Origin: Acidobacteriota bacterium
Lineage (GTDB): Bacteria > Acidobacteriota > Terriglobia > Bryobacterales > Bryobacteraceae
DNA length: 35,705 bases
Reading direction: 5' to 3'
Assembly (NCBI GenBank): GCA_016871015.1
Contig: VFZX01000032.1
Location: 1-35,705 of the forward strand
The position numbers and the translations under genes were made by a program. Position 1 is the first letter of the stretch; each line of letters starts with the position of its first letter. Of the stretch, positions 3,585 through 26,650 are shown piece by piece. The notes under the pieces were generated by a model. The model saw nothing but the letters and a program-made list of their open reading frames with translations, did not search any database and was not told the origin of the DNA.

Positions 3585-3829
3585 ATGCCGTTGACTGCCG
3601 GTGAAAAGCTCGGACCCTATCAGGTCGTCTCCCCGCTTGGGGCCGGCGGGATGGGAGAAGTGTACAAAGCCCGTGACACGCGGCTGGACCGCACGGTCGC
3701 GGTCAAGGTGCTGCCTGATCACATCGCCAAGAAGACCGACGCGCGGCAGAGGTTTGAGCGCGAGGCCCGCGCTGTCGCCTCGTTGAACCATCCGAACATT
3801 TGCACGCTGTTCGATATCGGCGATGGCTA
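3585..3829 (+). pseudogene. Kinase copy C, N-terminal remnant
   Basis: The first ~82 codons match the intact kinase almost perfectly ([14 protein letters not shown], the Gly-rich loop, [19 protein letters not shown]). Similarity then stops at 3829/3830, in the middle of the N-lobe. The open frame does not stop there: it continues in frame as a TonB-dependent receptor fragment to the TGA at 4059-4061, giving a 159-codon chimera. HRD, DFG and APE motifs are all absent, so it cannot be an active kinase. The junction looks like an illegitimate recombination or deletion that joined two unrelated genes. Confidence 0.9.
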
Positions 3830-4442
3830 CACTTGGCAATGGAACTTCGGGATCCAGCGCGAGGTGTTCCGCGGAGTGCTGCTCGAGACGGCCTATGCCG
3901 GCAACGGCGCGCACAAGCTGACCGGGCGCGACCTGCCCAACCAGGCGTTTCTCGATCCAGATGCGGCGGGGCCTACGACGGTCCTCAGCCGGCGTCCGAA
4001 TCCGAATATCGGCGACGTCAGCTATGTGAGCTCGCTCGACAACTCGAACTACCACGGTTGAACGTCAAGTTGGACAAGCGCTTTGCGGGCGGAGTGTCGC
4101 TATTGGGCGCCTATACGTATTCGAAGGTGATGGGGATTGGCGGGGCGCTGTCCGGCGACCCGTCGCGGCAGCAGCATGCGCGCAACCGGCGGGCCGAGTA
4201 TGCCGTTCTCGAGTTCAACCAGACGCAACGGCTACGGTGGCTTGGATCTACGAGCTTCCGTTCCTGAAGCGGAGCCTGGCGGGAGGCTGGTCACTGCAAG
4301 GGGCGTTCACCACCCACACCGGATTTCCGCTCACGCCCGCGCGTCGGTGTCGTCCAATGCCGGGCGGCAGGGTACCAACCGCGCCGACCGGACTTGCGAT
4401 GGCAACCCTGCCCGCGCGGCACGGTCGATCAACCGGTGGTTT
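3830..4442 (+). pseudogene. Oar-like TonB-dependent receptor fragment
   Basis: Remnant of the barrel region of a large outer-membrane receptor, related to the three intact receptors in this window. Motifs follow the usual order but jump frames: QWNFGIQR and DNSNYHG (to about 4058), LNVKLDKRF and GAYTYSK (second frame), AWIYELPFL and LAGGWSLQGAF (third frame), then NRADRTCDGNP and RSINRWF (back in the first frame). At least three indels are needed (about 4058, 4232 and 4340), so the gene is dead. The signal peptide, regulatory-like domain, plug and extreme C-terminus are missing. The right limit (4442) is approximate. Confidence 0.85.
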
Positions 4443-8782: not shown

Positions 8783-9182
8783 ACACCCGCTCACGCCGGT
8801 TGGCGATCCCGAGTACGCCGGCGACGCGATCGCCTTCGAGCATCGGCAGCGCGATGGCGCCCTCGAGTCCCGTGGCCCGCGCGCCGGGACGCACGTCGCC
8901 GCTGGAATCCGTCTGAATGTTGCATGCCGTGACGGATTGCTTCCGCTCGGCCGCAAGTCCGGCCATGCCCTTGCCCACCGGAACCACGCGAATGATTTCG
9001 ATGACGGGCGGCGGAATCCCGGCGCTCGCCGTCCGCAGGTGCAGCATCCCATCGCCACCCATCAGGTGAACGGTCCCACTGTCGGCTCCAAAATGGGCGA
9101 TCACCGCGGCCAGCGCCTCAGCCCACGGATCACTCCGCGCAAAGCAGCCAGCCAGTTGCTGTTCAAGTGCCGGATCCATCAT
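8712..9182 (-). CDS. GAF-domain protein
   Basis: 156 aa, a single GAF sensor domain with no attached output domain. The typical core is visible: FGADSGTVHL (~31-40), GKGMAGLAAER, then GLEGAIALPMLEGDRVAGVLGIANR, then [17 protein letters not shown]. The ligand is unknown. Its ATG overlaps the TGA of the DUF1501 gene in an ATGA, so it is the last gene of the bshC-PSD1-DUF1501-GAF operon and probably translated by coupling. Its 3' end overlaps the MFS gene on the other strand by 71 bases. Confidence 0.88.
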   Translation of the reverse strand: MMDPALEQQLAGCFARSDPWAEALAAVIAHFGADSGTVHLMGGDGMLHLRTASAGIPPPVIEIIRVVPVGKGMAGLAAERKQSVTACNIQTDSSGDVRPGARATGLEGAIALPMLEGDRVAGVLGIANRRERVFSADEESLLLETGRWLAARTASR

Positions 9183-10582
9183 GCAAGCAGCTCCTTGATC
9201 ACGTTCCCGGCGACATCGGTCAATCGCATGTCGCGGCCCGAATACCGGAAGGTGAGGCGCGTGTGGTCGAGCCCCAGCAGGTGCAGCATCGTCGCATGCA
9301 GGTCATGCATGTGGACCTTGTTCTCCACCGCGAAATACCCGAATTCGTCCGTCGCACCATGAATCATGCCGGGCTTCACGCCGCCCCCCGCCATCCACAT
9401 CGTGAACCCGAACGGATTGTGGTCGCGCCCCACCTGCTTCACGTAGCCGCCGTCGGGAAACTGCGCGCATGGCGTGCGGCCGAACTCGCCGCCCCAGACG
9501 ACGAGTGTTTCATTCAGCAGTCCGCGCGACTTGAGATCCTTGAGGAGCCCGGCAACGGGCCTGTCGGTCGCCCGCGCGTTGACGCGGTGTCCGTGCTCGA
9601 TGTTGCCGTGCTGGTCCCAGCGGTCGATCCCCTGGCGCGCTGGTGTCAACAGCTCGACAAATCGCACGCCCCGCTCCACCAGCCTGCGCGCCAGCAGGCA
9701 CTCGCGGCCGAACTCCGCCGTGTCCGGTTCATCCAGGCCGTACAGCCGTCTCGTCGCGACGGATTCGCGCGAAATATCCAGCAGGTCGGGCACGGCGCGT
9801 TGCATCCGGAACGCCATCTCGTAGTTCTCAATCGCCGCCTCCACCTCATTCACCTTGCCGAAACGCTCCAACACTCCCTTGTTGAGCTTACCGAGGAGAT
9901 CGAGCTTGCTCTTCTGTACCGCGGGATCACGGTCCGCCGGTTGGAGGTCAGCCACCGGATGTTCGCCGTTGCGGAACAACGTGCCCTGGTGCGTTGCTGG
10001 AAGGAATCCGCTCGCGAAGCAGTCCATGCCGCCGGGCGGAATCAGTCCGCTCTCGAGGACAATGAATGCCGGCAGATTCGCGCTCTCGCTGCCCAATCCG
10101 TACGACAGCCACGCGCCCATGCTCGGCCGCCCCTGGAATCCGGATCCCGAGTGGATGAAGTAGTTCGCCGCCGTGTGCTCGGAATGATCGGCCACCATGG
10201 ACCGGATGATCGCCAGCTCATCCACGCATCCGGCCACGTGCGGGAACAGATCGCTCACAGGCGCGCCGCTCTGCCCGTGCCGCCGGAACTCGAACGGCGA
10301 TCCCAGGATCTTGTCGCTGATGTTGAACACGGTCGCGGGCGGCCGGAACGGCAGCGGCATCCCGTGGTCCTGCTTCAATCGCGGCTTGGGATCAAACGTG
10401 TCCATCTGCGACGGGCCGCCATCCATGAACAGGAAGATCACCGACTTGGCCTTCGGCTCGAAATGTGGCTTGCGCGCCGCCGCCAGAGCCTCCCGCGACA
10501 TCAGGTGCAGCGCCGCCAATCCGCCGAATCCGTTGGCGCACCGGGCCAGCATGTCGCGGCGCGTCTGAAATCTATTGGACAT
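9179..10582 (-). CDS. DUF1501 Tat-exported protein
   Basis: 467 aa member of the DUF1501 family, sulfatase-like-fold proteins abundant in planctomycetes and acidobacteria, whose function is not established. The Tat motif TRRDMLAR lies near the start, followed by a short hydrophobic stretch. Family signatures are FLFMDGGPSQMDTFDPKP, VVWGGEFGRTP and GRDHNPFGF. I take ATG 10582 rather than an upstream start 30 bases earlier because it puts the Tat motif close to the N-terminus; this start overlaps the end of the PSD1 gene by 11 bases. PSD1-type cytochrome proteins and DUF1501 proteins are routinely encoded side by side, which suggests a joint envelope function. Confidence 0.92.
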   Translation of the reverse strand: MSNRFQTRRDMLARCANGFGGLAALHLMSREALAAARKPHFEPKAKSVIFLFMDGGPSQMDTFDPKPRLKQDHGMPLPFRPPATVFNISDKILGSPFEFRRHGQSGAPVSDLFPHVAGCVDELAIIRSMVADHSEHTAANYFIHSGSGFQGRPSMGAWLSYGLGSESANLPAFIVLESGLIPPGGMDCFASGFLPATHQGTLFRNGEHPVADLQPADRDPAVQKSKLDLLGKLNKGVLERFGKVNEVEAAIENYEMAFRMQRAVPDLLDISRESVATRRLYGLDEPDTAEFGRECLLARRLVERGVRFVELLTPARQGIDRWDQHGNIEHGHRVNARATDRPVAGLLKDLKSRGLLNETLVVWGGEFGRTPCAQFPDGGYVKQVGRDHNPFGFTMWMAGGGVKPGMIHGATDEFGYFAVENKVHMHDLHATMLHLLGLDHTRLTFRYSGRDMRLTDVAGNVIKELLA

Positions 10583-13169
10583 AGACAAACTCCGCCGAGT
10601 TGAACAGCACATGGCACAGGTCCGCCCAGGGACGCTGCCGCACGAAGGCCAGTGTCTCGTTGAGTTCCCACTGCTCCGGAGTCCTGCCGAACGCCTCCTG
10701 ATACATTGCGCGAATCCGCCGTGCCGCGTCCGGCTCGCCTTCGGTCCGCCGTGCCCACGCCGTTGCCGCGTCGACGACCAGCTCGTTGTTCATCATCATC
10801 AGCGCTTGCGACGGCACGGTCGACACTCCGCGCGCCCCAATCGAGGACACCGGCAGCGGATAGTCGAACGCAAGAAACATCGGCGTAATGAAGTTGCGCC
10901 GGACCTGAATGTAGATGCTCCTCCGCCCGGCTCCATCCAGTGGACCGGACTTCGGCTTGCCCCGCCCGTCCTGATACCGCGAGATGTGGGGTGTCACGCC
11001 TGGACCAAACTGCGTCCGGTCGAGCTTGCCCGACACCGCCAGCAGACTGTCACGGATCGTCTCCGCTTCGAGCCTCCGCACCGGCATGTGATGCAGCAGA
11101 TCATTGCGAGGATCGAGCTTCGCCGCCTCCGGCGCCACGCGGCCCGACATCCGGTAGGCGCTCGACAACACGATCATGCGGTGCATTTCTTTGATGCTCC
11201 ACCCGCTCTCCACGAACGCCCGCGCCAGGTAGTCCAGCAGCTCCGGGTGCGACGGACGCTCGCCCATCCGTCCGAAGTTGTCCGCGCTGCGAACGATTCC
11301 GTGGCCGAAGTGATGCTTCCAGATCCGGTTCACCATCACTCGCGCCGTTAGCGGATTCGACGGACTGGCAATCCGCTCCGCGAGCTCCAACCGGCCGATT
11401 CCACGAACCGGCGTCTGCTGCTCGCCCGCGATCACCGCCAGGAATCCGCGCGCTACCGGCTCGCCGAGATTCTTGTGGCTGCCGCGGATATGGAGCCGCA
11501 CGTCGGCTGGATCCAGATCTGTGGCGATCATTCCGAACGCCGACGGTGGCGCCTGCACGGCGCCCGACAACTGGACCGGCTCACCGGGATCTCCCGCCGG
11601 CGGCTCGCTGCTATCGGAAATCACGATCCGTTCCACTTGCAGGAACCCGGATGTGCTGCGATCGACGATCTCGAAATAGCACAGCCGCCCGATCTCCTTG
11701 GTCGCCCGCAGCGTCTTCCACTCGAACTCAGGCTTGCCGGATGGAAACGCGTGGAGGCTCTTATGCCCATCCGCAATCAGCGTCACGCGTAACGCGGCGT
11801 CCTCCTTCGCGTTCCCGTCGTGTGCGCTGCCCCGCATCCGGATATGCACCCACAGGCTCGGCATGCGGAACTTGCTTGACGTGAGCGAGCCGGCCAGCGG
11901 CGCCCCCGCGCTGACGGGCGCCTGGTATGCGGCGCCACTCGCGGTCCAGCGGACATCGCCCGCGCCTTCGATCACCGGCAACGGAGCTGGCGCTCCAGGC
12001 GCACTCCGCGCGACCTCGCGGGCCCGCGCGGGCGAATCGATCACTGCCTCGCGGACATCGGTGGAATGCAGAATCCCGGCCAGCGCATAGTAGTCGGCGG
12101 TGCGGATCGGGTCGAACTTGTGGTCGTGGCAGCGCGCGCACGATACTGTGAGTCCTTGAAACGCCTTGCTGATCACGTCGATTTGGTTGTCGACTTCGTC
12201 CGCGCGCGACTTCACCGAATCGGTTGCGCTGTTGAGCACCTCGCCGAACCAGTAGAACGAAGTCCCGAGCGGCGACTCGAGGAACGCGCCGTCCGCGGTC
12301 AACCGCGGATTCGGTAGCAAATCGCCAGCCAGATGCTCGCGCACGAACTGGTCATACGGCAAGTCCTGGTTGAACGCGCGGATCACGTAGTCGCGATAGC
12401 GCCACGCGTCGAGCTTCGTGTTGTCGAATTCGTGCCCGTTGGTTTCGGCGAACCGCACCAGGTCGAGCCAATGGCGTCCCCAGCGTTCGCCGTAATGCGG
12501 GGATGCGAGCAGCCGTTCGACCACCGCCTTCTCCGCTTCGGCGCTCGAGTCCGCCAAATACGCGGTGACCTCGGCGGGCGTGGGCGGCAGCCCAATCAGA
12601 TCGAATGTGACGCGCCGGACCCAGACCCGCTTGTCCGCGGGCGGCGCGGGCCGCAGTCCTCTCGATTCGAGCCCAGCCAGGATGAAGCGGTCCACTGGCG
12701 ACGACGGCCACCCGCTATCCCGGACCGTGGGAAGCGCAGCCTTGCCCACCGGCTGGAACGCCCAGAACTTGCGCCCCTCGGCGAGATCGATGCCAGAAAC
12801 CTTCGACGCCGGAGCGCCCGCTTCCCGCGGATCTGGCGCGCCCATCTCGATCCACCGCCGGAACGCCGCGATCTCTTCGTCCGCCAGCTTGCCTGTGGGC
12901 GGCATCTTGAGATCCAGATCCCGGTAGCCGATCGCCTTGAGCAGCAAGCTCTTCTCCGGCGCACCAGGCGTTACCGCCGGACCCGTGTCGCCGCCCTTGC
13001 GCAAACCTGCGGCGCTGTCCAGCCGGAGTCCACCCATCGGTGCTTTGAGCTTGCTGTTGTGGCACGGCTGGCACTTTTCCACCAGCACCGGCCGGATCGA
13101 TTTCTCGAAGAACTCGGCCGCGGTGTCAGCCCACGCAACGCCCGCGGCTAGGATCGCAATCCATCGCAT
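10572..13169 (-). CDS. PSD1/PSCyt1 c-type cytochrome-like protein (DUF1549/DUF1553)
   Basis: 865 aa exported protein. A short signal peptide (~1-14) precedes a PSCyt1 domain with the heme motif C33-QPC-H37 and the following KMPP (Met axial-ligand candidate, ~88-91). Next come DUF1549 (RVTFDLIGLPPTPAE, HWLDLVRFAETNG) with a second CxxCH (C344-ARC-H348), a jelly-roll-like central section, and DUF1553 (NRIWKHHFGHGIV, HPELLDYLA, TVPSQALMMMNN). The family is expanded in planctomycetes and acidobacteria; redox coupling to breakdown of a complex substrate is a common guess, not shown. It lies 19 bases after bshC and overlaps the DUF1501 gene. Confidence 0.93.
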   Translation of the reverse strand: MRWIAILAAGVAWADTAAEFFEKSIRPVLVEKCQPCHNSKLKAPMGGLRLDSAAGLRKGGDTGPAVTPGAPEKSLLLKAIGYRDLDLKMPPTGKLADEEIAAFRRWIEMGAPDPREAGAPASKVSGIDLAEGRKFWAFQPVGKAALPTVRDSGWPSSPVDRFILAGLESRGLRPAPPADKRVWVRRVTFDLIGLPPTPAEVTAYLADSSAEAEKAVVERLLASPHYGERWGRHWLDLVRFAETNGHEFDNTKLDAWRYRDYVIRAFNQDLPYDQFVREHLAGDLLPNPRLTADGAFLESPLGTSFYWFGEVLNSATDSVKSRADEVDNQIDVISKAFQGLTVSCARCHDHKFDPIRTADYYALAGILHSTDVREAVIDSPARAREVARSAPGAPAPLPVIEGAGDVRWTASGAAYQAPVSAGAPLAGSLTSSKFRMPSLWVHIRMRGSAHDGNAKEDAALRVTLIADGHKSLHAFPSGKPEFEWKTLRATKEIGRLCYFEIVDRSTSGFLQVERIVISDSSEPPAGDPGEPVQLSGAVQAPPSAFGMIATDLDPADVRLHIRGSHKNLGEPVARGFLAVIAGEQQTPVRGIGRLELAERIASPSNPLTARVMVNRIWKHHFGHGIVRSADNFGRMGERPSHPELLDYLARAFVESGWSIKEMHRMIVLSSAYRMSGRVAPEAAKLDPRNDLLHHMPVRRLEAETIRDSLLAVSGKLDRTQFGPGVTPHISRYQDGRGKPKSGPLDGAGRRSIYIQVRRNFITPMFLAFDYPLPVSSIGARGVSTVPSQALMMMNNELVVDAATAWARRTEGEPDAARRIRAMYQEAFGRTPEQWELNETLAFVRQRPWADLCHVLFNSAEFVYVQ

Positions 13170-14806: not shown

Positions 14807-15124
14807 ATGGATGAACAATCCTTTCAGCGCAACGCTGCTGCCGCCATGCACCGCCTTTATAAGATGCTCGCAGCCGCCTCCGAGGATCATGACTTTGACG
14901 TGGACTTCAACAATGGAGCCCTGACCATCGAGTTCGAGGATCCGCCCGCGCGATTCGTCGTGAGCCCGAATTCACCGGTCCGGCAAATCTGGGTGTCGGC
15001 GAACGTGAAGAGCTTCAAGCTCGACTGGGACGCGGCCCGGGACGAGTTCGTCCTGGGAGATGAGACGCTGCCAAACCTGATCACGAGACAGATCTCAGTC
15101 CATACCGGCAGCCAGGTATTCTAG
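14807..15124 (+). CDS. cyaY: Frataxin-like iron donor protein CyaY
   Basis: 105 aa, the size of bacterial frataxins. An acidic N-terminal helix is followed by the beta-sheet core with GALTIEFEDPPARFVVSPNSPVRQIWVSA, whose tryptophan and SPN..RQIW segment are characteristic. Frataxin binds iron and modulates Fe-S cluster assembly in the cytoplasm. It is divergent from bshC with 43 bases between the two starts; both iron and low-molecular-weight thiols feed Fe-S metabolism, so shared regulation is plausible but not shown. Its TAG and the stop of the convergent receptor gene share one CTAG. Confidence 0.88.
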   Translation: MDEQSFQRNAAAAMHRLYKMLAAASEDHDFDVDFNNGALTIEFEDPPARFVVSPNSPVRQIWVSANVKSFKLDWDAARDEFVLGDETLPNLITRQISVHTGSQVF

Positions 15125-18100
15125 AATTCGTACCGCAGCCCGAACTGCATCTGCCGCGCCGCCGCTGCCCCGGTGATCCGCCCGAAGTTCCGGTTGTCCA
15201 CGGTCATGTTCGGCGTGTTGAAGTTGGCGTGGTTGAGCGTATTGAACAGCTCCCACCGGAACTGCACCGAGTGGTTCTCGACGATCGCGAACCGCTTCTG
15301 CAGCGAGATATCGATCACCTGCCGGCCTGGGGTGTCCACTGTGCCCCGTCCGGCGTTGCCAAACGTGAACTGATCCGGCAGCCGGAACGCGTCGATGTTG
15401 AAGAACCGCTCCGGCGTCCGCGTGCCGGTGGACCACGACTGTCCCGGGACCACGTCGGCGCGCATCCGTCCTGCCCGGTCGCAATTGCAGCGGTCCTGGG
15501 CGACCACCGCGCTTTGAGACAGTCCGGTCCGGAACGTGCCAATCCCCGCGAGCTGCCATCCCCCGATCCAGCGGTTCGACTTCATCCACGGGAACTCCAG
15601 GATGTAGCCCAGGCTGAACAACTGCCGCGCGTCCTGAGCCGACCGGCCGCGCTCGGCCTTCAGGTTGTCGCTGTCCTGCGCATTGTCAAAGCTGTTGCCT
15701 CCCCCGCCGAATGAAGCCGATCCGGTGTCCAGCGACTTGCTGAACGTGTACGCAGCCAGGAACGAGTGGCTGCGCGAGAAGCGCTTGTCGGCCTTGAACT
15801 GCAGCCCGTGGTAAATCGACGGCATGCGCGCCTCGCGGACGAAAAACGTCGCGAACCCTTGGAACGGACGGCGTGGCTGGATCGCACCGGGACCCGGTCG
15901 CGGGCTGTTGATGACGTCGCTGCGCGGCAGCTTGGTGCCTTTCGTGCCGACGTAGCCAAGCTCGAGCACGAGGTCGGAGGCCACCTGGCGCTGGACCGTG
16001 AAGTCCCACTGCTGAACATAGGGATCGCGCCGCCCGTACTCAAGCGCGCGCACCGACACGATACCTGAGGGCGAGCGCCTGTCCAACTGGAATGCGTTCT
16101 CGAACGTCAACACCGGCGAGGGAAACACGGCGGTGAACACGTCGTTCACGATGCGCGGCGGATTCTGTGCCTGGAACGTGAACATCTGCCCAAGCGACAA
16201 CGCATAGAACACTCCATATCCGCCACGGATCACGGACTTGCCGCCGGCGCGCGGCCGCCACGCGAACCCGAAGCGCGGCGCCCAGTTGTTGTAGTCTCCC
16301 TTGTACATCGCGAACGGGTACTTGAAGCCTGTCACTGGACCGGTGTCGCCCGGCTGCACTACCGCCGCGCGGCCGGATCCATAGATCCAATCGACGCTGG
16401 CATTGCGCCCGTACTTGTCGGCCAACGGCGTGTTGAACTCGTAGCGCAGGCCCAGGTTGATGGTCAACGTGCGCGACACCTTCCAGTCGTCCTGGAAAAA
16501 CGCTCCGAACAAGGTCGAGCGCATGTCGACGCGCGTCGATCCCACTTGCCGCTGGGAGCGCGACGCGAACCCCAGCAGGTAATCGGCGAACTCGTTGCCG
16601 GTCGAGGTGGCTTGCGCCGCGTTGCGTGTGAACCGGCCGTCGAACTCGAACGTGCCGCGCCCGTGACTGTTTTGCACGCCGTTCAACTCGCTCCGCTGCA
16701 TCTGAACTCCGAAGCGGAACGCGTGCGCCTGCCGGATCAGCGACACCGTGTTGTTGACCTGCTTCACATTGTCCTTGCGGATCGTTGGGAACGGATTCGA
16801 AGGATCGGAAACCGCCGCATAGTTCGGAATGATGCTCACGTTCGGAAAGCCGAAGTCGATGGGATCGGTTGATACACCGCCGATTCCCAGCTTGCCCGCG
16901 ATGTCGTCCTTGAAGGTACGCGCGGAGATCGTGTTCGCCCGGTCGCGGTTGAACCCCAGTCGAAGCTCGTTGATCAGATTCGCGGTCGCCAGCCACGTGT
17001 AGTTGAGCGTCGCCAGTTGCGCGCGGGGCTCGTTAAACGTGCCCAGCACTGGAAGCGATCCGGGTGAAAACGAAGTTGTGTTGTTGATGCCGTAGCGGCC
17101 GAACAGCATGTGCTTGGCGGAGATCTGATGGTCCACGCGAACGCCCCACGTATCTCCCGTCGAGCGGCTTCCGGCGGTGTTGATGAAGTTGATGGTGCCT
17201 TCGCGGAGATTCGGTTCCGGATAGAACTGATTGAGTCCCGCGGCGACCTTTGAGATTCGTTGGGATGGAATCCGGTTGCCTGGGAACTGCTGGACCGTGT
17301 TCGCGCCCGCGCTGTACGTCAACACGTCGAAGACCGGCCGCTCGCCCGCGAAGTCCCCGCCGCGAAGGGCAGGCGACGGGATGTTCGAACGCGCCTGTGC
17401 GGTCTGGCGTACCCGCAGCCCCTCGTAGTCGCCGAAGAAAAACGTCTTGTTGCGCCGGATGGGGCCGCCGAATGTGCCGCCGAACTGGTTCCGCTTGAAC
17501 GCTGGCGGAGGTCCTGCGGGCTCAAAGAAGTTGCGCGCGTCGAACTTGCGGTTCCGCAGAAACTCAAACGCCGTGCCGTGGAAGGAGTTGGTGCCGCTCT
17601 TGGTCACCAGGTTGATCTGACCGTTCCCTGCGAATCCGAACTCGGCGGAAGGAATCGCGGTCTGGACCTTGAACTCCTGGATCGCGTCGAGGTTCGGCGA
17701 GATCACCACGGAGCCGTCAAATCGCGAATAGTTGTTGGTGCCGTCCATGACGTAGCCGTTGAAATCGCCGCGTCCGCCATTGATCGCCAAACCGTCGCCA
17801 TTGGTCGCGCCGGTGGTGACGCCGGGAGTCAGGGTGGCGAGTTGAAGAAAGCCCCGGCCGTTGAGCGGAAGCGTCAGCGCCTTGGTGGTGTCGATCACGT
17901 CGCCGAGCGATGCGTTCTCAGTCTGAAGCAGTGGAGGAGCGGCCTGCACGGTCACCTCCTGCTGCACCGCGCCGAGCTCGAGCGCCACGTCAATGCGAAC
18001 CTGCTGGTCCACCTGGAGCGAGATGGAAGTGATGCTCGCTTTCCGGAATCCCGTCTTTTCCACCGTAACGTTGTAGACGCCCACCGGCAGGAAGTTCGCC

Positions 18101-18285
18101 ACGTAGCCGCCTTCGGTGCCGGAAGCGGCTTCACGCTGCTGGCCTGTCTGCTCGTTACGAACAATGACTCTGGCGCCGGGGACTGAGGCTCCACCGGAAT
18201 CGGTAATCGTGCCCAGAATTGTTCCCGTGACATTTTGCGCCCTGAGATTCAGCGCCAACAAGAGAGTCAGAATCGCTGTCCGCAT
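15121..18285 (-). CDS. Oar-like TonB-dependent receptor 1
   Basis: 1054 aa outer-membrane receptor. Signal peptide ~1-16 (ends LRAQ), a carboxypeptidase-regulatory-like beta-sandwich (~18-105, TGTILGTITDSGGASVPGA), plug (~115-235, LPLNGRGFLQL, NLVTKSGTNSFHGTAFEF), then a long barrel ending in ...RYEF; a final Phe is the usual outer-membrane insertion signal. The substrate is unknown; in acidobacteria such proteins are thought to take up large oligomers. Upstream on the same strand lies a 3' scrap of a TIGR03437 gene, and the same junction recurs at 23609-23763, so it was probably once directly downstream of the Kelch/TIGR03437 gene. It is now about 5.4 kb away. Confidence 0.93.
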   Translation of the reverse strand: MRTAILTLLLALNLRAQNVTGTILGTITDSGGASVPGARVIVRNEQTGQQREAASGTEGGYVANFLPVGVYNVTVEKTGFRKASITSISLQVDQQVRIDVALELGAVQQEVTVQAAPPLLQTENASLGDVIDTTKALTLPLNGRGFLQLATLTPGVTTGATNGDGLAINGGRGDFNGYVMDGTNNYSRFDGSVVISPNLDAIQEFKVQTAIPSAEFGFAGNGQINLVTKSGTNSFHGTAFEFLRNRKFDARNFFEPAGPPPAFKRNQFGGTFGGPIRRNKTFFFGDYEGLRVRQTAQARSNIPSPALRGGDFAGERPVFDVLTYSAGANTVQQFPGNRIPSQRISKVAAGLNQFYPEPNLREGTINFINTAGSRSTGDTWGVRVDHQISAKHMLFGRYGINNTTSFSPGSLPVLGTFNEPRAQLATLNYTWLATANLINELRLGFNRDRANTISARTFKDDIAGKLGIGGVSTDPIDFGFPNVSIIPNYAAVSDPSNPFPTIRKDNVKQVNNTVSLIRQAHAFRFGVQMQRSELNGVQNSHGRGTFEFDGRFTRNAAQATSTGNEFADYLLGFASRSQRQVGSTRVDMRSTLFGAFFQDDWKVSRTLTINLGLRYEFNTPLADKYGRNASVDWIYGSGRAAVVQPGDTGPVTGFKYPFAMYKGDYNNWAPRFGFAWRPRAGGKSVIRGGYGVFYALSLGQMFTFQAQNPPRIVNDVFTAVFPSPVLTFENAFQLDRRSPSGIVSVRALEYGRRDPYVQQWDFTVQRQVASDLVLELGYVGTKGTKLPRSDVINSPRPGPGAIQPRRPFQGFATFFVREARMPSIYHGLQFKADKRFSRSHSFLAAYTFSKSLDTGSASFGGGGNSFDNAQDSDNLKAERGRSAQDARQLFSLGYILEFPWMKSNRWIGGWQLAGIGTFRTGLSQSAVVAQDRCNCDRAGRMRADVVPGQSWSTGTRTPERFFNIDAFRLPDQFTFGNAGRGTVDTPGRQVIDISLQKRFAIVENHSVQFRWELFNTLNHANFNTPNMTVDNRNFGRITGAAAARQMQFGLRYEF

Positions 18286-18409
18286 CGCGCACCCAGTATA
18301 CTCCCGCCAAGTGCGAGTTGCTGGTCACTCACCCACGCCCATGGTCACGGTGTTGGACTGCCGTCCGCTCATCGTGATCCGTACCGGGATTTCCGCGCCC
18401 GCCGCGGCG
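18252..18409. repeat. Junction direct repeat, left copy
   Basis: About 158 bp that match 23609-23763 in the same orientation, with only scattered substitutions and one small gap near the outer end. It contains the first codons of receptor 1, the intergenic spacer and the last ~27 codons of a TIGR03437-type protein. Together with the right copy it brackets the 5.2-kb segment carrying receptor 2 and its partner gene. Confidence 0.9.
18325..18409 (-). pseudogene. TIGR03437 C-terminal scrap
   Basis: The last ~27 codons of the Solibacter-type C-terminal domain (EIPVRITMSGRQSNTVTMGV, stop TGA at 18325-18327) without the rest of the gene. It is nearly identical to the end of the intact Kelch/TIGR03437 gene at 23679. 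It was created by duplication of the junction, not by gradual decay of a full local copy. Confidence 0.85.
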
Positions 18410-18450
18410 GCTCATGCCTGCATCATTTCGATTCATGAACGACTCCGAAT

Positions 18451-19776
18451 CTACCAATACCCGCGCCAACGGCCTTCCCAGTAAGCCCAAAGCCAGCCTG
18501 TGAGGCTATCGAAATCGACCAACTCGCCCTCAATCCTCCAATCCGGAGGGAGCGCGTGGCGATCGGACTGAGCCATGACAAAGCGGAATGTGTTGAGGTC
18601 GAGCCCTTCGACGACCTTCCGCGCCACTTCGGCCATGTTCTCCTTCGGGAACCATCGCTGGGCGTTGACGGCCGCGCGGGCAAAAATGGCGATTCGCCCC
18701 GTGCGGGTCGGCCCGCCTCCGAAACCCGGGTTCACGGGCGCCATCTCTCCGGTTTCCAGATTGTGGGTCCAGGCCGTGTACGCCGTGGCATCCGGCAAGA
18801 CTCCGGTCCGGAGGGTCCGGAAGACGTTGAACATCATGCTGCGCCAAAGCTCGTGGTGGGCCGGATCCATCTCCATCATGAGGCTGGGCAGATAGAGCAT
18901 GCGATGGGCTGTATACCCGCGTACGGTACCAGCGGGGACCGGCCACTTCTTGTCCAATCCGCATCGCTCGTACCAACCCTGGACTTCACGGAGGTATTTG
19001 GAGTCGCCGGTCGCCTCCCAGGCTAGCTGGAGCAGCGGGATGTGGATGAGGGCGTGGCTCCACTCCCGGTTGACCAACTGAAGTTCCGCTTCGCTCATGG
19101 GATGCCCGAAGTAGCCGTATTTGATGTAGTAGCGATGTTTGATCTGGTAGTCGGCCATATTCCGGAACATCTCATCCAGGACGGCCCGGTCCTTGGGCGG
19201 CGCAATGTTTCGATACGCCTCCAGTCCCACCACCAGGCACTGCACCTGATCGCCGGAACTCTGTTTGTTGAACTTGCCTCCGTAGGGCTTGATCACGAAG
19301 CCGGGTTCGTCCTGGGCTCCCAGATCGTAGATGTACTTCAGAGCGCCGAACGTCCGCCGGCACATCTTCAGAACCTCGGGATCGCCCGTCACGCGATACT
19401 GATACGAGAGTGCGCCCAGGTAGAAGGCCGTGTTGGAGGTGGTATTCTCCCAGGCGCGCCAAACGTGCATCGGGGGCAGCCCGAGTTCTTCCTCTGTTTT
19501 GCCCTTGAGGTGCCGGTGGCGATAGGCTCCCTTGTAGTCCTCGGCCGTGGGCAACTTGTAGTCGCTGGCCCGGACGAACATCGGAACCATGCCATGCGCC
19601 TGCAGCATCCTGGTTTCCAGCAGATTCTGGATGCGCAACGCCTTCTGCTCGAGTTGAACGCTGCTCATTGGCGCGCCGTGCGCGGATCCCGCCCCGGCTG
19701 TCGCCGCCAGTAGCGGGATCAGGCGCTTCCCCGCGCGCCCCGCGACAATCGTAGTCAAAGCATCTCTTCTTCTCAT
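18451..19776 (-). CDS. Exported protein of unknown function
   Basis: 441 aa. I do not recognise the family. The N-terminus MRRRDALTT followed by an Ala-rich hydrophobic stretch (to ~34) looks like a Tat-type signal. The rest is rich in aromatic and helical segments (WRAWENTTSNTAFYLGALSYQY, HPMSEAELQLVNREWSHALIH, FDSLTGWLWAYWEGRW), the texture of an (alpha/alpha) toroid as found in many glycoside hydrolases and polysaccharide lyases; that is inference from pattern only. I place the start at 19776, because the frame upstream of it only runs antisense-free through the end of receptor 2 in a shifted frame. It follows receptor 2 by 41 bases, so the two form one transcription unit. Confidence 0.8.
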   Translation of the reverse strand: MRRRDALTTIVAGRAGKRLIPLLAATAGAGSAHGAPMSSVQLEQKALRIQNLLETRMLQAHGMVPMFVRASDYKLPTAEDYKGAYRHRHLKGKTEEELGLPPMHVWRAWENTTSNTAFYLGALSYQYRVTGDPEVLKMCRRTFGALKYIYDLGAQDEPGFVIKPYGGKFNKQSSGDQVQCLVVGLEAYRNIAPPKDRAVLDEMFRNMADYQIKHRYYIKYGYFGHPMSEAELQLVNREWSHALIHIPLLQLAWEATGDSKYLREVQGWYERCGLDKKWPVPAGTVRGYTAHRMLYLPSLMMEMDPAHHELWRSMMFNVFRTLRTGVLPDATAYTAWTHNLETGEMAPVNPGFGGGPTRTGRIAIFARAAVNAQRWFPKENMAEVARKVVEGLDLNTFRFVMAQSDRHALPPDWRIEGELVDFDSLTGWLWAYWEGRWRGYW

Positions 19777-19817
19777 TGGACCGGAATGAAACCTATTCTT
19801 CTTCTTCCTGGGGCCTC

Positions 19818-22800
19818 TCAAAACGTGTACTTGAGCGCAAGCTGAATCACCCGGCCCGGTTGGGCACTGAGAATTCGCCCGAATGCCGGCGACGTGGCTT
19901 GGGCGTTCGGGTTGTTGAAGTTCGCGTGGTTGAGCGTGTTGAAGGTCTCTCCCCGAAACTCCACCAGGTGCCCTTCGAAGATGCGGAAGTTCTTGACCAA
20001 TGCCAGGTCGATATTCGAGAGGGAAGGTCCATAAAGGACGTTCCGGCCGCTGTTGCCCCACGAACCGTCGGCTGGAATCGCGAATGCCGAGGTGTCGAAG
20101 AATCGGGACAACATCTCATTGCGGGGCCGGCCGCCCGGCAGGAATGGGTTCCGGCCCAAAGCGTCGGCGCGCTCGCCCCCGGTTCCGCTCAAGGAGGTCG
20201 CGCGCCCTGCCAGGACGGTGATGGGCAAGCCGCTGCGCAAGTTCAGGATGCCATTCAACTGCCAACCTCCGGCGATTCGCGCCAGCGCGCTCGTCGAGCT
20301 TCGCAGGAAGGGAAGGTCCCAGACAAAAGATCCCACGTAGACGTGTCTCACATCGAAGTCGGAGGTTCCGCGGTTGAGCCGCGGATTGAAAGGATTGGGT
20401 TGCCCGAGTGACGATCTGCCGCGGGAGATGAGATCGATGGACTTGGACCAGGTGTAGGAAGTGAGAACCGTGAAACCCTGCGAGTAGCGTTTGTTGAAAG
20501 TCACCTGCAAGGAGTGATAGTTGGACGTCCCACTCGATTCGGAACGGTCCAACCCGGCGAAGTTTGGAGCCAGGATGCGGCGTGCGTCGATGTTCGCCAC
20601 GGTCGACGCCCCAGGCACGAAGATCGCGGGGTTGCTTTCGCGGCTGAGCCACAGTTTGGTTCCTTTGCTGCCGGCGTAAGCCAACCGCAACAGCGCGTTC
20701 CCCTTGACTTGCCGCTCCACGCTGAGCATCCATTGCTGGATGTAACCTATGCGGAAGTTCCAATCAAAGTAAGGCTGGACGCTAGGCCGGGTGAAAACGA
20801 AGTTGGGATTGTTCCGGGAAGCATCGTCGAACGGAAACGGGTTCGGGGTTCTGCTGGCGCCATAGGGATCCTGAAAACTGCCGGGAGCGTTGATGAGAAC
20901 GCGCCGGTTGAAGGGCTCCGCCTGGCCCAGATTCTCGATCGATGCCGATCGGATATTGTCATAAAATAACCCGTATCCTCCACGGACGCTCGTGCGGCCG
21001 TTCCCCTGAACGTCCCAGGCAAAGCCGGCACGGGGCGCGAGATTATTCATATCGCTGCGGTACACGCCTTCCGGGACGCCGTCATCGCCGACAAAAACCA
21101 AGCCCACCGGTGCATTTGGAAAGCGGCTCGACTTCTGACCCAAACGGATGGTTCCCAGCCACCCGTTATCCACTCGGGCGGGGATCCGGGGCTCGTAGCG
21201 CAGGCCGATGTTGATTGTCAGCCTCGGCTTTAGTTTGAAGTCGTCTTGAAAAAAGAAGTCGTGCTCACCCGCCCGGCGCAGTTGCAGATTGGGGGCATTC
21301 TGGGTGAACGACAGCGGCAGCCCAAGCAGGAAATCCCCGAAGCCGACCCTGCTGAACTGAGCGCCGAAGCTGAAGGCACCGCCGGCGGAGGTGCCGTTGG
21401 CTGCGTCGATGATCATGCGACGGGATTCGAAACCAAACTTCATGAAGTGCCGCCCGCGGATGTAGTTGACCGTGTCGGCGAACTGGTACGTCTTCCGTTG
21501 TTCGTTGCTCGACCGGCGTGCATCCGCGAAAAAGTCCTGAGTGCCGAGACTCAACCAAGTCTTCCCGTTCACTTCGGGTGCGGCGATTTTCGCGCCCAGT
21601 TCGGCCCAGGATTTGCTTTCGAGGGGGAAGCCCACCTCGGCGACCCGGATGTATCCAAAACGGAAGTCGTTGATCAGCGAACCGCTGAACGTGTGAGCAT
21701 CGGCGATCGCGAGACTTCGCGTGCGGAAATCGCCAGGATGATTCACGAAGGACGGCAAGCCGCCATCGGTGACCAACACGTTGTTGTTGTAGAAGAAGCG
21801 CCCGGTCAGGCGGTTCTTGCCGGTCAGTACGTGATCGATTTTGGCTACGTACTGATGGAGATCGTTCTGCCGTGGAAAGTTGTAGCGGAACGGTCCCCGC
21901 AACCCGTTCGGGCTCTTGGGCAAGAAGCGTTCGATGAAGCGCGAGGCGACGGGATCGATTCGCGTGGCGGGTATGCGGTCATCGGGAAAACGTTGTCCGG
22001 TGGACGGGTCGATCGGCCGTTGTACCGCTTGCGAAAAATCACCCTGCCTCTCGGCATCTGACGGCACCGAACTGATCGTGGTGACGGAGGCGAATCGCTG
22101 AATGGTGCCCTGATACGAACCGAAAAAGAAGGTCTTGTTCCGGATGACCGGTCCGCCCACCGCCGCGCCGAACTGATTCTGGCGCAGCACTTCTCTTCTT
22201 GCCGCAAAGAAGTTCCGCGCGTTCAGGTTGTTGTTCCGGAGGAACTCGAACAGTGCCCCATGGACCGTATTCGTACCCGACTTGGTGATCGCATTGATCG
22301 TTCCGCCCGCGCTCCGTCCGAACTCCGCGCTCAGCGAGAACTGGACGATGCTGAATTCCTCGAGCGCCTCTGGCGAGGGCATGACCGCCGGGGCGTTCGT
22401 CCAGGTGTCGACGGCGCTCCCGCCATCGAGCGTGTAGTTGTTCATTGTGCCCCGGGAGCCGTTGATGGAGACGCCGCGGTTCTCGGCGCCACCCGATCCG
22501 GCGTCGGACACCACTCCCGGCAACAACAACTGCAACTGGAGCGGGTTGCAGCCGCTGAGCGGCAACTGGCGCATTCTGGCCGAGTCCACGAGCAGACTAT
22601 GGTTGGCACTGCGGGTTTCCACCAGAGTGGCGTCGCCGGTCACGGTTACGCTCTGTGTGAGGTCTCCGACTTCCAGCACCACGTCGATCCGGGCATTCTC
22701 GTCAGTGCTGAGGGAGATGCCCGCCCGCGTGTGCTGCTTAAAGCCGGGCGCTTCCACTTTGATCGAGTAACTCCCCACAGGCAGAAGCGCCACCAGGTAT

Positions 22801-23003
22801 GATCCGGTTTCGCTCGGGACCGTTGTTCTGAGCTGCCCAGTTCGTTCGTTCCTGACGGCGACGCTGGCCTTTGCCACTGAGGCGCCGGTAGCGTCCTGAA
22901 TCGTGCCCCAAACTGTCGCGGTCCCTTGGGCAAACAGCGGAACTGCGCAAGCCAAAAACGTTGGAATGATTCTGCGGCGGACCAAATTTGTCAAGTGCCT
23001 CAT
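19818..23003 (-). CDS. Oar-like TonB-dependent receptor 2
   Basis: 1061 aa outer-membrane receptor. Start chosen at ATG 23003 (MRHLTNLVRRRIIPTF...), preceded by GGAAAGCGAGG, rather than the open frame 60 bases further up, because it places a normal signal peptide (ends PLFAQ) at the N-terminus. Regulatory-like domain (~28-115, GTIQDATGASVAKASV), plug (LPLSGCNPLQLQLLLPGV, AITKSGTNTVHGALFEFLRNN), barrel ending ...LKYTF. It is clearly diverged from receptor 1, so it is not a recent duplicate. By eye its base use is somewhat less GC-rich than that of receptors 1 and 3. It has its own strong promoter and heads a two-gene unit inside the direct-repeat-bounded segment. Confidence 0.92.
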   Translation of the reverse strand: MRHLTNLVRRRIIPTFLACAVPLFAQGTATVWGTIQDATGASVAKASVAVRNERTGQLRTTVPSETGSYLVALLPVGSYSIKVEAPGFKQHTRAGISLSTDENARIDVVLEVGDLTQSVTVTGDATLVETRSANHSLLVDSARMRQLPLSGCNPLQLQLLLPGVVSDAGSGGAENRGVSINGSRGTMNNYTLDGGSAVDTWTNAPAVMPSPEALEEFSIVQFSLSAEFGRSAGGTINAITKSGTNTVHGALFEFLRNNNLNARNFFAARREVLRQNQFGAAVGGPVIRNKTFFFGSYQGTIQRFASVTTISSVPSDAERQGDFSQAVQRPIDPSTGQRFPDDRIPATRIDPVASRFIERFLPKSPNGLRGPFRYNFPRQNDLHQYVAKIDHVLTGKNRLTGRFFYNNNVLVTDGGLPSFVNHPGDFRTRSLAIADAHTFSGSLINDFRFGYIRVAEVGFPLESKSWAELGAKIAAPEVNGKTWLSLGTQDFFADARRSSNEQRKTYQFADTVNYIRGRHFMKFGFESRRMIIDAANGTSAGGAFSFGAQFSRVGFGDFLLGLPLSFTQNAPNLQLRRAGEHDFFFQDDFKLKPRLTINIGLRYEPRIPARVDNGWLGTIRLGQKSSRFPNAPVGLVFVGDDGVPEGVYRSDMNNLAPRAGFAWDVQGNGRTSVRGGYGLFYDNIRSASIENLGQAEPFNRRVLINAPGSFQDPYGASRTPNPFPFDDASRNNPNFVFTRPSVQPYFDWNFRIGYIQQWMLSVERQVKGNALLRLAYAGSKGTKLWLSRESNPAIFVPGASTVANIDARRILAPNFAGLDRSESSGTSNYHSLQVTFNKRYSQGFTVLTSYTWSKSIDLISRGRSSLGQPNPFNPRLNRGTSDFDVRHVYVGSFVWDLPFLRSSTSALARIAGGWQLNGILNLRSGLPITVLAGRATSLSGTGGERADALGRNPFLPGGRPRNEMLSRFFDTSAFAIPADGSWGNSGRNVLYGPSLSNIDLALVKNFRIFEGHLVEFRGETFNTLNHANFNNPNAQATSPAFGRILSAQPGRVIQLALKYTF

Positions 23004-23084
23004 TTTGCCTCGCTTTCCGACGGTGTCCGGTGACCGCCGACGGCGGCTCCAGACGCCTGCCATCCGTCAGGTAAGGGAGTATGG

Positions 23085-23113
23085 AGTATATCGTGCAGTT
23101 TTTCTCCTGTCAA
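23085..23113 (-). promoter_or_regulatory. Sigma70 promoter of receptor 2
   Basis: On the minus strand TTGACA (23113-23108) and TATACT (23090-23085) are separated by exactly 17 bases: a perfect -35 and a five-of-six -10. Transcription would start near 23078, leaving a leader of about 75 bases before the receptor ATG at 23003. This is the clearest promoter in the window. Confidence 0.8.
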
Positions 23114-23135
23114 CCAACTTGTACACCAACTTGTA
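23114..23135 (-). promoter_or_regulatory. Tandem operator-like repeats
   Basis: The plus-strand 10-mer CCAACTTGTA occurs at 23114-23123 and 23126-23135, a 12-bp period, starting one base upstream of the -35. On the coding strand each reads TACAAGTTGG. Placement on one face of the helix directly before the -35 suits an activator or a repressor. TTGTA-type half sites occur in some GntR-family operators, but no regulator gene is adjacent and the assignment is inference. Confidence 0.6.
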
Positions 23136-23244
23136 TAATCGAAGATGCGAGCAAACCTGGCTGCGCGGCCGCAGGACAGGATGCTGAACACCCGCCGCCC
23201 GGACGGCGCGGTCAATAGTCGATTCCAACCTTGCGGCGCGGTCT

Positions 23245-23467
23245 TTCGGGCTGCGTGGCGGTCCCATCTCAAGGCCATGGTGTGTCGGTCGACTTCTTCG
23301 CCTTGCCGACCATCCGGCTCCAGGTGCTGTACGTATTACTGGTTCTGGCTCACGAGCGGCGGCGAATTCTGCGTTTCGGTGTCACCGCCCACCTCACCTC
23401 CGCGTGGACCGCCCAGCAACTCCGTGAAGCCTCTCCGGGGGACACCGCGCCACGGTGTCTGCTGCGG
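23245..23467 (+). pseudogene. Integrase-core (rve, IS481-like) transposase remnant
   Basis: About 75 codons of a DDE-type transposase core. The motif series VDFFALPTIRLQVLYVLLVLAH, then RRRILRFGVTAHLT, then WTAQQLREA, then DTAPRCLLR is that of the IS481-like integrase core common in acidobacteria. The preceding WRSHLKAM piece sits in another frame, so there is one frameshift near 23282. The first catalytic Asp (in VDFF, 23291-23293) remains; the second (expected in LLRDRD) is lost because similarity breaks off at about 23467. It lies just inside the right border of the repeat-bounded segment. Confidence 0.8.
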
Positions 23468-23608
23468 GTAACTGTTCAGACCCTTATGATTGTTGGGCTT
23501 GAAGAGGGCGAAAGCTGGGCGCCGGTTGGAGTCGTGAAGCTGTACTTCTGAGCCGCGCGGCTACCAGTCCATCACCGAGCCGTCGTCCTCGTCGTACGGC
23601 TCGGGGTT
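23468..23608. other. Unassigned spacer between transposase scrap and repeat
   Basis: No recognisable gene. It joins the broken end of the transposase remnant to the right direct repeat. On the minus strand it would be read through from the truncated receptor-like start at 23639, but the frame soon ends without a recognisable receptor domain. Confidence 0.5.
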
Positions 23609-23763
23609 GCGCCAGGAGAGTCAGAATCGCCGTCAGCATCGCGCACCCAGTGTACTCCCGCCAAGTGCGAGTTGCCGGTCACTCAACCACGCCCATGGTC
23701 ACGGTGTTGGACTGCCGTCCGCTCATCGTGATCCGTACCGGGATCTCCGCGCCTGCCGCGGCG
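23609..23763. repeat. Junction direct repeat, right copy
   Basis: Matches 18252-18409. On the minus strand it holds the end of the intact Kelch/TIGR03437 gene, the spacer with a TACACT/TATACT-like box, and a truncated receptor start (ATG 23639-23637, reading MLTAILTLLA against MRTAILTLLLA of receptor 1). Similarity to receptor 1 ends at 23609. Confidence 0.9.
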
Positions 23764-25256
23764 CCGGCGGGAACCCGCGTGTTCAACTGAGCGAGTCCCG
23801 GAAACCCGGGCGCCGGACCCGCGAACAGCACTTCGCCCGCCACCCCGCCGATGGTCACGGTTGCGCCGGCGCCGTACCCGGTTCCGTAGATCTCGATTGC
23901 CTCGCCTACCCTGGGTGCGCGCGACTGTTCGCCCGACGCGCGAGCCAGCAAACCCGTGCCCGCCACCAGGATCGCGCCTTGCCCTTCTCCGCGCTGCCCA
24001 AAGGCAAAGATGCCCGGAGCCGCCAGATCGATGTCCACCGGATATGGACTCTGATTCGGAACGCCCGCGTTCGTCACCACAACCTGCGTCCGGCCTGTGC
24101 CGGCTGTAGGTGGCATCAGGAAGTTGATCTGCCGCGGCGACACAAAGAACAACAGCGCCGGAATGTTGCCCACCGTCACCGTGACACTGTTCAATCTGGT
24201 CACGGGACCGCCGGGCGGCGCCGCCTGGCTGCCGTTCGAGAGGAACTCACCGAACAACGACGAGATCACATTCGGCGCGACCAAAGCGTCAAAGCTCGCC
24301 GCGTTCCGGATCGCCCCGTCCACGCGTGGCGCACTCGCGGGCAGCAGGAACACTTCATGCGCCATGGAGAAATCAGCGCCCGCGCGGGGACCGCCGGAGG
24401 CCGCGAAGATCCGTTCGTCGAGAGTCACTCCATAGAATCCATGGCGCGGCGTGGGCATCGGCGCAAGCTGCCGCCAGCGGTTGTCCACCGGATCGAACTC
24501 GTGATTCTCCTCGTAGGTTCCCTGCGGCCTTGGACTCGGACCTTCGCCGCCGAACACGATGATCCGGCCGCGAATGACGCCACTGCCCAGTCCGCCGCGG
24601 GCCACTGGAATCGGCGCACGCGCGCGCCAGGTGTTCGAGGCCGGATCGTACTCCTCGGTCGCGGCGATCTGCGTTCCTCCGTTGCGGCCTGCGATTGCAA
24701 AGACTCTGCCGTCCACGGCCTGCGCCGTCAGATGGTCGCGCGCGTTGGCCATCGGTGCAAGCAGCGACCATTCCCCCGCCGCGGTGTCGAAGACATCAAG
24801 GGTTGGCACGGTCCCTGTTGCGCCGACACCGCCGGCGATATAGATCCGTTGTCCGATGACCGCGACTCCCGAAGCACCACGCGGCCTCGGCATCCGCGCG
24901 ACAGAGCTCCAGCGGTTCACTTCGGGATCGTACACGAACGTCTCGTCCAACAAGAAGGACGTGCCGAAGCGGAGCGCGCCCAACAGGTAGAGCTTGCCAT
25001 TCACGGCGGCGACATTGCAATGATCCACCGATTCAACCGGGACTGGAGCGGCTTCGGTCCAGCGGTCGGAGCCCGGATCGTAGCGGAACATCCGGTTGGT
25101 CCCGCCGGCCGCGGTGATGCCACACAGGCAGTAGATCTGGCCCCCGATAGCGACGCCCGACACCTCAGTGGCCGCAATCGGATACGGAGCCCGTGTCTCC
25201 CACACACCCTGGCCAAGCATGGCGGCCGCGCAAGCAAGGAATGCAAAGAAGCGCAC
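23679..25256 (-). CDS. Kelch-repeat protein with TIGR03437 C-terminal domain
   Basis: 525 aa exported protein. GTG start at 25256, five bases after the stop of the ceramidase-like gene, followed by a short signal peptide (FFAFLACAAAMLGQ). Residues ~20-310 hold about six Kelch blades (paired Gly and W/Y motifs such as IYIAGGVGATG and ASNTWRARAPIP), a beta-propeller. Residues ~315-525 are the Solibacter-type C-terminal domain TIGR03437 (IRNAASFDALVAPNVISSLFG, LFFVSPRQINFLMPP, APGIFAF, EIYGTGYGAGATVTIGG, NTRVPAG, SNTVTMGV). That domain is a useful lineage marker but has no known function. Fourth gene of the RraA-Nramp-ceramidase-Kelch operon. Confidence 0.92.
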   Translation of the reverse strand: MRFFAFLACAAAMLGQGVWETRAPYPIAATEVSGVAIGGQIYCLCGITAAGGTNRMFRYDPGSDRWTEAAPVPVESVDHCNVAAVNGKLYLLGALRFGTSFLLDETFVYDPEVNRWSSVARMPRPRGASGVAVIGQRIYIAGGVGATGTVPTLDVFDTAAGEWSLLAPMANARDHLTAQAVDGRVFAIAGRNGGTQIAATEEYDPASNTWRARAPIPVARGGLGSGVIRGRIIVFGGEGPSPRPQGTYEENHEFDPVDNRWRQLAPMPTPRHGFYGVTLDERIFAASGGPRAGADFSMAHEVFLLPASAPRVDGAIRNAASFDALVAPNVISSLFGEFLSNGSQAAPPGGPVTRLNSVTVTVGNIPALLFFVSPRQINFLMPPTAGTGRTQVVVTNAGVPNQSPYPVDIDLAAPGIFAFGQRGEGQGAILVAGTGLLARASGEQSRAPRVGEAIEIYGTGYGAGATVTIGGVAGEVLFAGPAPGFPGLAQLNTRVPAGAAAGAEIPVRITMSGRQSNTVTMGVVE

Positions 25257-25261
25257 CAGGG

Positions 25262-26650
25262 TTACTTCACCCGCTCCAGCAATTCGAGGATCACGTCGGT
25301 GATTTTCACGGACGCGCCTTTCTCCACGTTGTTCGTACCGAGCCAGGTCTCGTATCCGCCCAGTTCGTGATGCCGGGGCGTGGGCAAATAGCCCCAATGG
25401 CCGTTAGCAAGCTCAATCGTGAAAACCGGCTTAACGGCCGACCGCTCCTTGATCGCGAGGCCAATCTCGGTGAAGACCTCGAACGGGATGGCGGCGATCG
25501 CGAACCCGCCGATCCGCATCGCCTGAAGCTTGATCAACGCCGTGGCGGGGCCTTCCTGGAGCCGTAGCGCGCGTTCGGCATAGGCCTTTGCGTTGCGCGG
25601 GAGCTTGGATTCATCCGCCTCCTTCAACGCGGCCTGCGCGAACGTGAGCTGCGCGGGCGTTGGCTTGCGGTAGGCAAGCTCCAACTCGCGCTCAGCCGAT
25701 CGCAGCTCCGCGGTCCCCGTGTACTCCATCGTCCGTGACGCCTCCACCGCATGGCCCGCGATGCGAGTGGCCACCTCGCGAATCCTTTGCATGGGCTCGG
25801 CGCGCGGCCGCGGATGCACGAAGTCGATGTTGTTCACGTCGCCACTGGTTCCGTTGGACAGGATCGCGACGAAGGAGGGGTTGTCCTGAGCCAGGGCCTT
25901 GGACACCTGGTGCGCGAACTCTCCGAAATAGTCCGATGAAACCTGATTGGCCGGAATGCCGCCAACGTAGTGCAGCGAGTAGTTGCCGAGCAGGGCGAGC
26001 GGCTTGCCTGCTTCGTTCCGGATCGACACGATCGAGAAGCCAGGATCAGTAGGTCCGGCTGGGTGAATCAAGTCCCTGCTCCCGGCGGGCGGATTCATCC
26101 GGGCCTTGTCATGCGTTTCGCCAAACGGATTCGGCGGAATCGACCCGTCGGTCATGAACCACCGCCGGTTGAACAACTCCTCGGGAACATAGCGGACCGC
26201 GTAACCGATGCGTGCGGGCTCGAGTCTCGAATGCGCGGTGGCGATCGCGTTCGCGGTCTGATCGATGATGCGCTGGACGTACCGCCCTTCCAGCGAGTCG
26301 CGCTTGCTGGCGTCCGACGGCGGCGCCGAGTGCGTGTGAGTCGCCGCGATCAGCATGTGGCTCGTGGGGATCCCGGTGCGCTTGGAAGCAATCGCCTTGG
26401 CCTCGTCCATCACGTCGCGTTTGACGAGGCAGCTATCGATCACCGCGATGGCAACCCGGTTCGCGCCCTCTTCGAGCACGATCGCGCGCACATGCAGCGG
26501 ATCGTGAGCGGACTGCGCTAGCGTCAAGCCGAAATTGCCGATCAAACGTACCGGCCACTCTTGAGGTGTGATGTCGGCGGCGTGTGCTCCGGCGCGCAAT
26601 CGTGCGAGCACCGGCAAGGCGGTCAGCAAAAGGGGCAGAAAGAGTCTCAT
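25262..26650 (-). CDS. Neutral/alkaline ceramidase-like protein
   Basis: 462 aa with a signal peptide (~1-24), probably periplasmic. It resembles the N-terminal domain of neutral ceramidases, zinc amidases. The zinc motif is present as AATHTHSAP (102-110, H105/H107) and a further candidate ligand lies in NYSLHYVGG (H227). The serine of the family's GDVSPN motif is absent: the equivalent stretch reads SGDVNNID (269-276). Ceramide hydrolysis is therefore doubtful and another amide or ester may be the substrate. Start ATG overlaps the TGA of the permease gene (ATGA), which fixes the start and implies coupling. Confidence 0.88.
   Translation of the reverse strand: MRLFLPLLLTALPVLARLRAGAHAADITPQEWPVRLIGNFGLTLAQSAHDPLHVRAIVLEEGANRVAIAVIDSCLVKRDVMDEAKAIASKRTGIPTSHMLIAATHTHSAPPSDASKRDSLEGRYVQRIIDQTANAIATAHSRLEPARIGYAVRYVPEELFNRRWFMTDGSIPPNPFGETHDKARMNPPAGSRDLIHPAGPTDPGFSIVSIRNEAGKPLALLGNYSLHYVGGIPANQVSSDYFGEFAHQVSKALAQDNPSFVAILSNGTSGDVNNIDFVHPRPRAEPMQRIREVATRIAGHAVEASRTMEYTGTAELRSAERELELAYRKPTPAQLTFAQAALKEADESKLPRNAKAYAERALRLQEGPATALIKLQAMRIGGFAIAAIPFEVFTEIGLAIKERSAVKPVFTIELANGHWGYLPTPRHHELGGYETWLGTNNVEKGASVKITDVILELLERVK

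Follow-up and report, generated by a model that had tools for sequence, protein, structure and literature searches.

Receptor and enzyme genes stand in pairs in loci of the polysaccharide-utilisation type. Outer-membrane receptors are encoded in very large numbers by acidobacterial genomes, and how these sets change is the question on which the locus described here bears. In Candidatus Solibacter usitatus Ellin6076, very large sets of diverged paralogues have been traced to ancient acquisition and duplication (PMC3174227). In bacterial genomes, about 10% of small variable segments have direct repeats on either side (PMC2884548). For merodiploids formed during transformation of Streptococcus pneumoniae, one report describes alternative pairing of incoming DNA on sister chromosomes (PMC3784515).

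The window analysed here, a stretch of 35,705 nucleotides, belongs to a soil Acidobacteria genome available as an 8.66-Mb draft assembly. Its positions 1-72 recur unchanged at positions 45-116 of L065, on a different contig of this genome, which points to a repeat at the contig end.

The locus within this window is probably a scar left by duplication on both sides of an acquired receptor-enzyme unit, and known recombination can produce scars of this kind.

The Kelch-receptor junction in two copies

Base-by-base alignment revealed direct repeats with an ungapped core at 18259-18409 (left copy) and 23613-23763 (right copy), both listed on the plus strand and identical at 143 of 151 positions (5.3% divergence). 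The starts at 18252 and 23609 of the preliminary description correspond to this core plus 'GCGCCA' across a 3-nt gap. The match is far beyond chance (E=6e-63). On the minus strand, both copies comprise the 28 terminal codons of a Kelch/TIGR03437 gene, the stop codon, a 39-bp spacer and the initial 8-9 codons of a receptor gene from its ATG. The Kelch stop lies at 18325-18327 in the left and 23679-23681 in the right copy, and the complement of the receptor ATG at 18283-18285 and 23637-23639, respectively. The reading frame is kept in both Kelch tails, which end in SNTVTMGVGE (left) and SNTVTMGVVE (right) before the stop. The left receptor start, MRTAILTLLLALNLRAQ, comprises the first 9 codons of receptor 1 (rec1; 15121-18285, minus strand) and runs on in frame into this intact gene of 1,054 aa. 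At the right copy the start reads MLTAILTLLAQPR, again in frame, and its homology ends after 8-9 codons, where the gene is broken off. The Kelch tail of this copy belongs to the intact Kelch-repeat gene with a TIGR03437 C-terminal domain (23679-25397, minus strand), whose true start is probably near 25202. It had been claimed that direct repeats hold a Kelch end, spacer and receptor start, and that the intact Kelch gene adjoins only the right copy and intact receptor 1 only the left; the sequence bears out both. Because the chimeric junction is present twice, the Kelch gene and the receptor start would once have been joined and their joint copied.

The eight mismatches are spread over the receptor start (3 in 27 bp), the spacer (2 in 39 bp) and the Kelch tail (3 in 85 bp). 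Strain variants or a repeat-induced misjoin in the draft assembly might imitate such an arrangement, given that the genome consists of 720 contigs and that the longest exact run common to the copies, 58 bp, is enough to branch a short-k assembly graph. We consider this improbable: copies that differ at 8 sites are not one collapsed sequence, the genes on both sides are intact, and the unique sequence at both joins between copy and segment must exist in some molecule.

The junction occurs in these two copies only in the whole assembly, and no third copy was found in 237 family genomes, where matches reach about 20-50 bp at most. We therefore rejected an origin of the repeat from a dispersed element or a MITE. 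Site-specific integration has a similar outcome, with imperfect direct repeats restoring the ends of both flanking genes; the Kelch-receptor junction would then be the attachment site, and the copies would be attL and attR of an integrative element. Against such an element, which we regard as very improbable, stand the lack of any other copy of the junction in the own genome or the family, the absence of tRNA genes from the window, and the gene content of the segment: its long minus-strand frames are a second receptor (rec2) and a predicted enzyme (exp), and in place of a recombinase gene there is only a 62-aa transposase fragment. Ordinary site-specific integration does not fit a segment that has no recombinase gene.

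The segment between the copies

The segment (18410-23612, 5,203 bp) has a GC content of 60.6%, compared to 64.2% for the remainder of the window. In a genome sample of 1,227 overlapping 5.2-kb stretches (mean 63.9, SD 1.2), none has so low a GC. When the 67 receptor genes of the genome are ranked by third-position GC, rec2 falls in the first percentile and rec1 at the median. In composition, the segment is atypical.

The rec2 gene (19818-23063, minus strand) encodes 1,081 aa as called, and its best relatives are 55-59% identical. It has the domain architecture of rec1, in both cases an N-terminal CarboxypepD_reg domain (E ~1e-18) and a full-length OMP_b-brl_4 outer-membrane barrel (1e-226 or better) in Pfam. 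On the same strand, exp (18451-19779) encodes 442 aa as called. Its matches to the Pfam families GH88 and GH127 of the six-hairpin glycosidase fold are weak (17.1 and 16.6 bits) and stay below the family cut-offs of 26.6 and 24.9, and its single-sequence fold is unreliable (pLDDT 43). Judged by these matches, exp is a probable six-hairpin-glycosidase-like, sugar-cleaving enzyme.

A promoter-like site of the sigma-70 type, TTGACA-17-TATACT, matches the consensus at 11 of 12 positions (23085-23113, minus strand) and is associated with rec2. Beside it are two operator-like CTTGTAYA boxes, 12 bp apart (23118-23137, plus strand). The box has a background of 0.02 per kb in the genome sample, was absent from all 49 other receptor upstream regions, and did not occur pairwise in the other listed loci. 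We would guess that the boxes are an operator, perhaps of a GntR-type regulator. With its genes, the consensus match, which predicts a promoter, and the rare boxes, the segment has the appearance of a self-contained unit under separate regulation.

The transposase remnant (23282-23467, plus strand; 62 aa) matches an integrase-type transposase (G000:C3:59274) at 69% identity, gave no Pfam match and lacks ends. Ordinary transposition does not fit: a duplication of 151 bp compares to the usual 2-14 bp, element ends were not seen, and the transposase is a fragment. The preliminary argument that a repeat of about 155 bp is too long for a transposon target duplication therefore holds. Inverted repeats of at least 30 bp were not found in the window.

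The locus among relatives and among receptor genes

If the Kelch gene and rec1 were once neighbours, relatives might retain the empty site. This check failed to find one. Kelch homologues in six genomes (G001, G023, G034, G032, G018 and G044) have other neighbours and never rec1, and the rec1 orthologues of two genomes (76% identical; G001 and G192) are never adjacent to a Kelch gene. The surroundings of the two orthologues differ, with an unrelated gene upstream at L097 and a transposase fragment at L098. With no genome carrying Kelch beside rec1, the adjacency would have both arisen and been interrupted within the lineage of the window. Because the copies differ by 5.3% and the nearest relatives share only about 70-75% DNA identity, the duplication appears to be younger than any sampled split. 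The missing empty site consequently says little, as the sampled genomes would have diverged before the event.

The genes of the segment are distributed unevenly. The receptor to which rec2 is 55% identical has orthologues in G000 and G001 that are 88% alike, and by this difference rec2 has no orthologue in these relatives. Apart from the own genome, exp homologues of at least 50% identity were present in 3 of 100 relatives (G094, G011 and G053) and missing from all 395 further genomes sampled in the phylum; a second copy of exp lies at G000:C172. The homologues in G000:C172 and G094, and a weak one in G002, are located within about 5 kb of DUF1501/PSD1-type pairs, which occur about once per 80-90 kb; the one in G094 additionally has a relative of the window's transporter close by. 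This resembles the window, where we take the genes at 9179-10612 and 10572-13169 to be a DUF1501/PSD1 pair. Hence exp may be native to clusters of this type, and a functional link to the pairs is possible. A conserved rec2-exp unit was ruled out, as the homologues are unlinked in other genomes. The patchy occurrence of exp, the orthologue-free rec2 and the atypical GC fit with acquisition. Atypical composition and patchy distribution, the two marks of horizontal acquisition, coincide in the segment, and the best reading is that it was inserted and is partly of foreign origin.

At contig G011:C343, an exp homologue is likewise enclosed by a repeat pair (L068 2038-2221 and 5673-5856). The pair consists of two copies of a MITE-like element, 184 bp long and bearing terminal inverted repeats (CTAGCCCGCATTTCTCACACG), and was dismissed as an instance of the same architecture.

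The preliminary description suggested that receptor repertoires might be shuffled in this way. A survey of 1.67 Mb of this genome, covering 68 receptor genes, found rec2 between direct repeats of 70 bp or more and none of the 67 others. Among 89 receptor genes in other loci a single one was bracketed, the rec1 orthologue of G001. There, 100-bp direct repeats (L064 5770-5866 and 10966-11065, G001:C193), 90% identical and unique in that genome, enclose a ceramidase-like gene together with the orthologue. The inner repeat copy lies just upstream of a TPR gene. That both cases touch the rec1 family is suggestive, and coincidence is possible.

The G001 arrangement makes rec1 look like a moving gene and bears on a different history, in which rec1 itself was relocated. 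Together with the 124 bp upstream of it, rec1 would have been copied to a position behind exp, and the original next to Kelch lost except for its first codons, rec2 and exp being older. The differing surroundings of the two orthologues and the company of exp and DUF1501/PSD1 pairs elsewhere agree with this. Two separate events would be required, however, and the atypical composition is that of the segment and not of rec1; we consider a relocation unlikely. From the same two cases, the window and the G001 orthologue with its ceramidase-like gene, one could also propose that the lineage repeatedly captures ~5-kb receptor and enzyme units by recombination that duplicates 100-150 bp of target, which we regard as improbable.

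Other locus-specific repeat pairs of the same genome surround unrelated genes and are 90-284 bp long and 93-95% identical. They lie around an MqsA-like gene in L185 (10645-10734 and 11522-11611) and an ATPase-like gene in L223 (11982-12102 and 13586-13706), both named from sequence, and around further unrelated genes in L237 (14308-14405 and 15896-15993) and L242 (11984-12265 and 16490-16773). Pairs of all kinds amount to ~9 per Mb here. The rate is 2 per Mb in the other loci and 5 per Mb in an isolate-type genome of the same order that consists of a single contig; these are too few for a claim of enrichment, which we dropped. With no other receptor of this genome bracketed and similar pairs around unrelated genes at similar rates, the shuffling proposal was not supported. 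The locus is most likely an old one-off insertion and not a receptor-shuffling system.

Within the window, a partial tandem duplication (434-1229 and 3042-3829; 91%, ~797 bp) brackets a Ser/Thr kinase-PD40 gene (976-3558). A truncated second copy lies at 3576-4061.

Insertion history and comparison with known systems

The chimeric junction is duplicated, the intact genes are on the expected sides, and the segment is atypical in composition with an internal promoter-like site. These observations, together with the orthologue-free rec2 and the rare exp, support the earlier proposal that two neighbouring genes were separated by an insertion; the part that no relative corroborates is the former adjacency. 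We favour, with a probability of roughly one in two, an insertion at the Kelch-rec1 junction with duplication of about 150 bp, most likely by homology-assisted capture. In the lineage of the window, the start of rec1 would have come to be placed 39 bp behind the end of the Kelch/TIGR03437 gene. An insert of ~5.2 kb with its own promoter, rec2, exp and transposon remains would then have entered at the junction, and the duplication of ~150 bp in the process would have left both resident genes unbroken. As a route, one end of the incoming DNA may have recombined at the junction of one sister chromosome and the second end may have joined ~150 bp away on the other, an exchange that we infer from other bacteria. 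The product would be foreign DNA flanked by two copies of a short stretch, which afterwards drifted to 95% identity. Functionally, a receptor-plus-enzyme unit under separate regulation may thereby have been added to a catabolic cluster. The segment holds no integrase and no recognisable element ends, which counts against this history.

The position of the breaks bears on the choice between such a local duplication and the decay of a larger one. The right copy retains 27 of 3,165 bp of rec1 and the left copy 85 of ~1,524 bp of the Kelch gene. In the larger event, the whole Kelch-rec1 pair would have been duplicated in tandem, and the inner rec1 and Kelch copies later replaced by rec2-exp and a transposon with only their ends left behind. 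No unusual insertion chemistry would be needed, and partial tandem duplications are present here, at the kinase gene of the window and in L228, L177 and L244. Both deletions would, however, have to stop by chance close to the gene boundary, no more than 85 bp from it in Kelch and 27 bp in rec1 (~5e-4 if uniform), and further Kelch or rec1 remnants were not found in 18410-18460 and 23064-23612. We rate this as unlikely, and because both breaks hug the gene boundary a local duplication at insertion is favoured.

The locus thus offers a single case in which the insertion of a receptor-enzyme unit, with a predicted promoter of its own, can be read from the sequence. Judged by the genome sample, it is probably exceptional, which narrows the question of how receptor sets change.

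As in loci of the polysaccharide-utilisation type, an outer-membrane receptor is followed by a probable glycosidase on the same strand; unlike in these loci, a SusD-like partner was not seen, exp is a putative glycosidase, and the relatives of rec2 and exp are unlinked elsewhere. The Ellin6076 genome likewise combines large paralogue families, TonB-dependent receptors included, with many mobile elements, and the term 'direct repeat' does not occur in that paper (PMC3174227). Capture of foreign DNA with homology at one end corresponds to homology-facilitated illegitimate recombination (PMC2884548 and papers cited there), whereas most repeats at small variable segments are below 30 bp and ours is ~150 bp. 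The merodiploids of S. pneumoniae are duplications of ~100-900 kb that arise from existing repeats, in contrast to 151 bp at a gene junction here. There, a duplication is left with foreign DNA between the repeated segments (PMC3784515), as would be the case at the locus described here.
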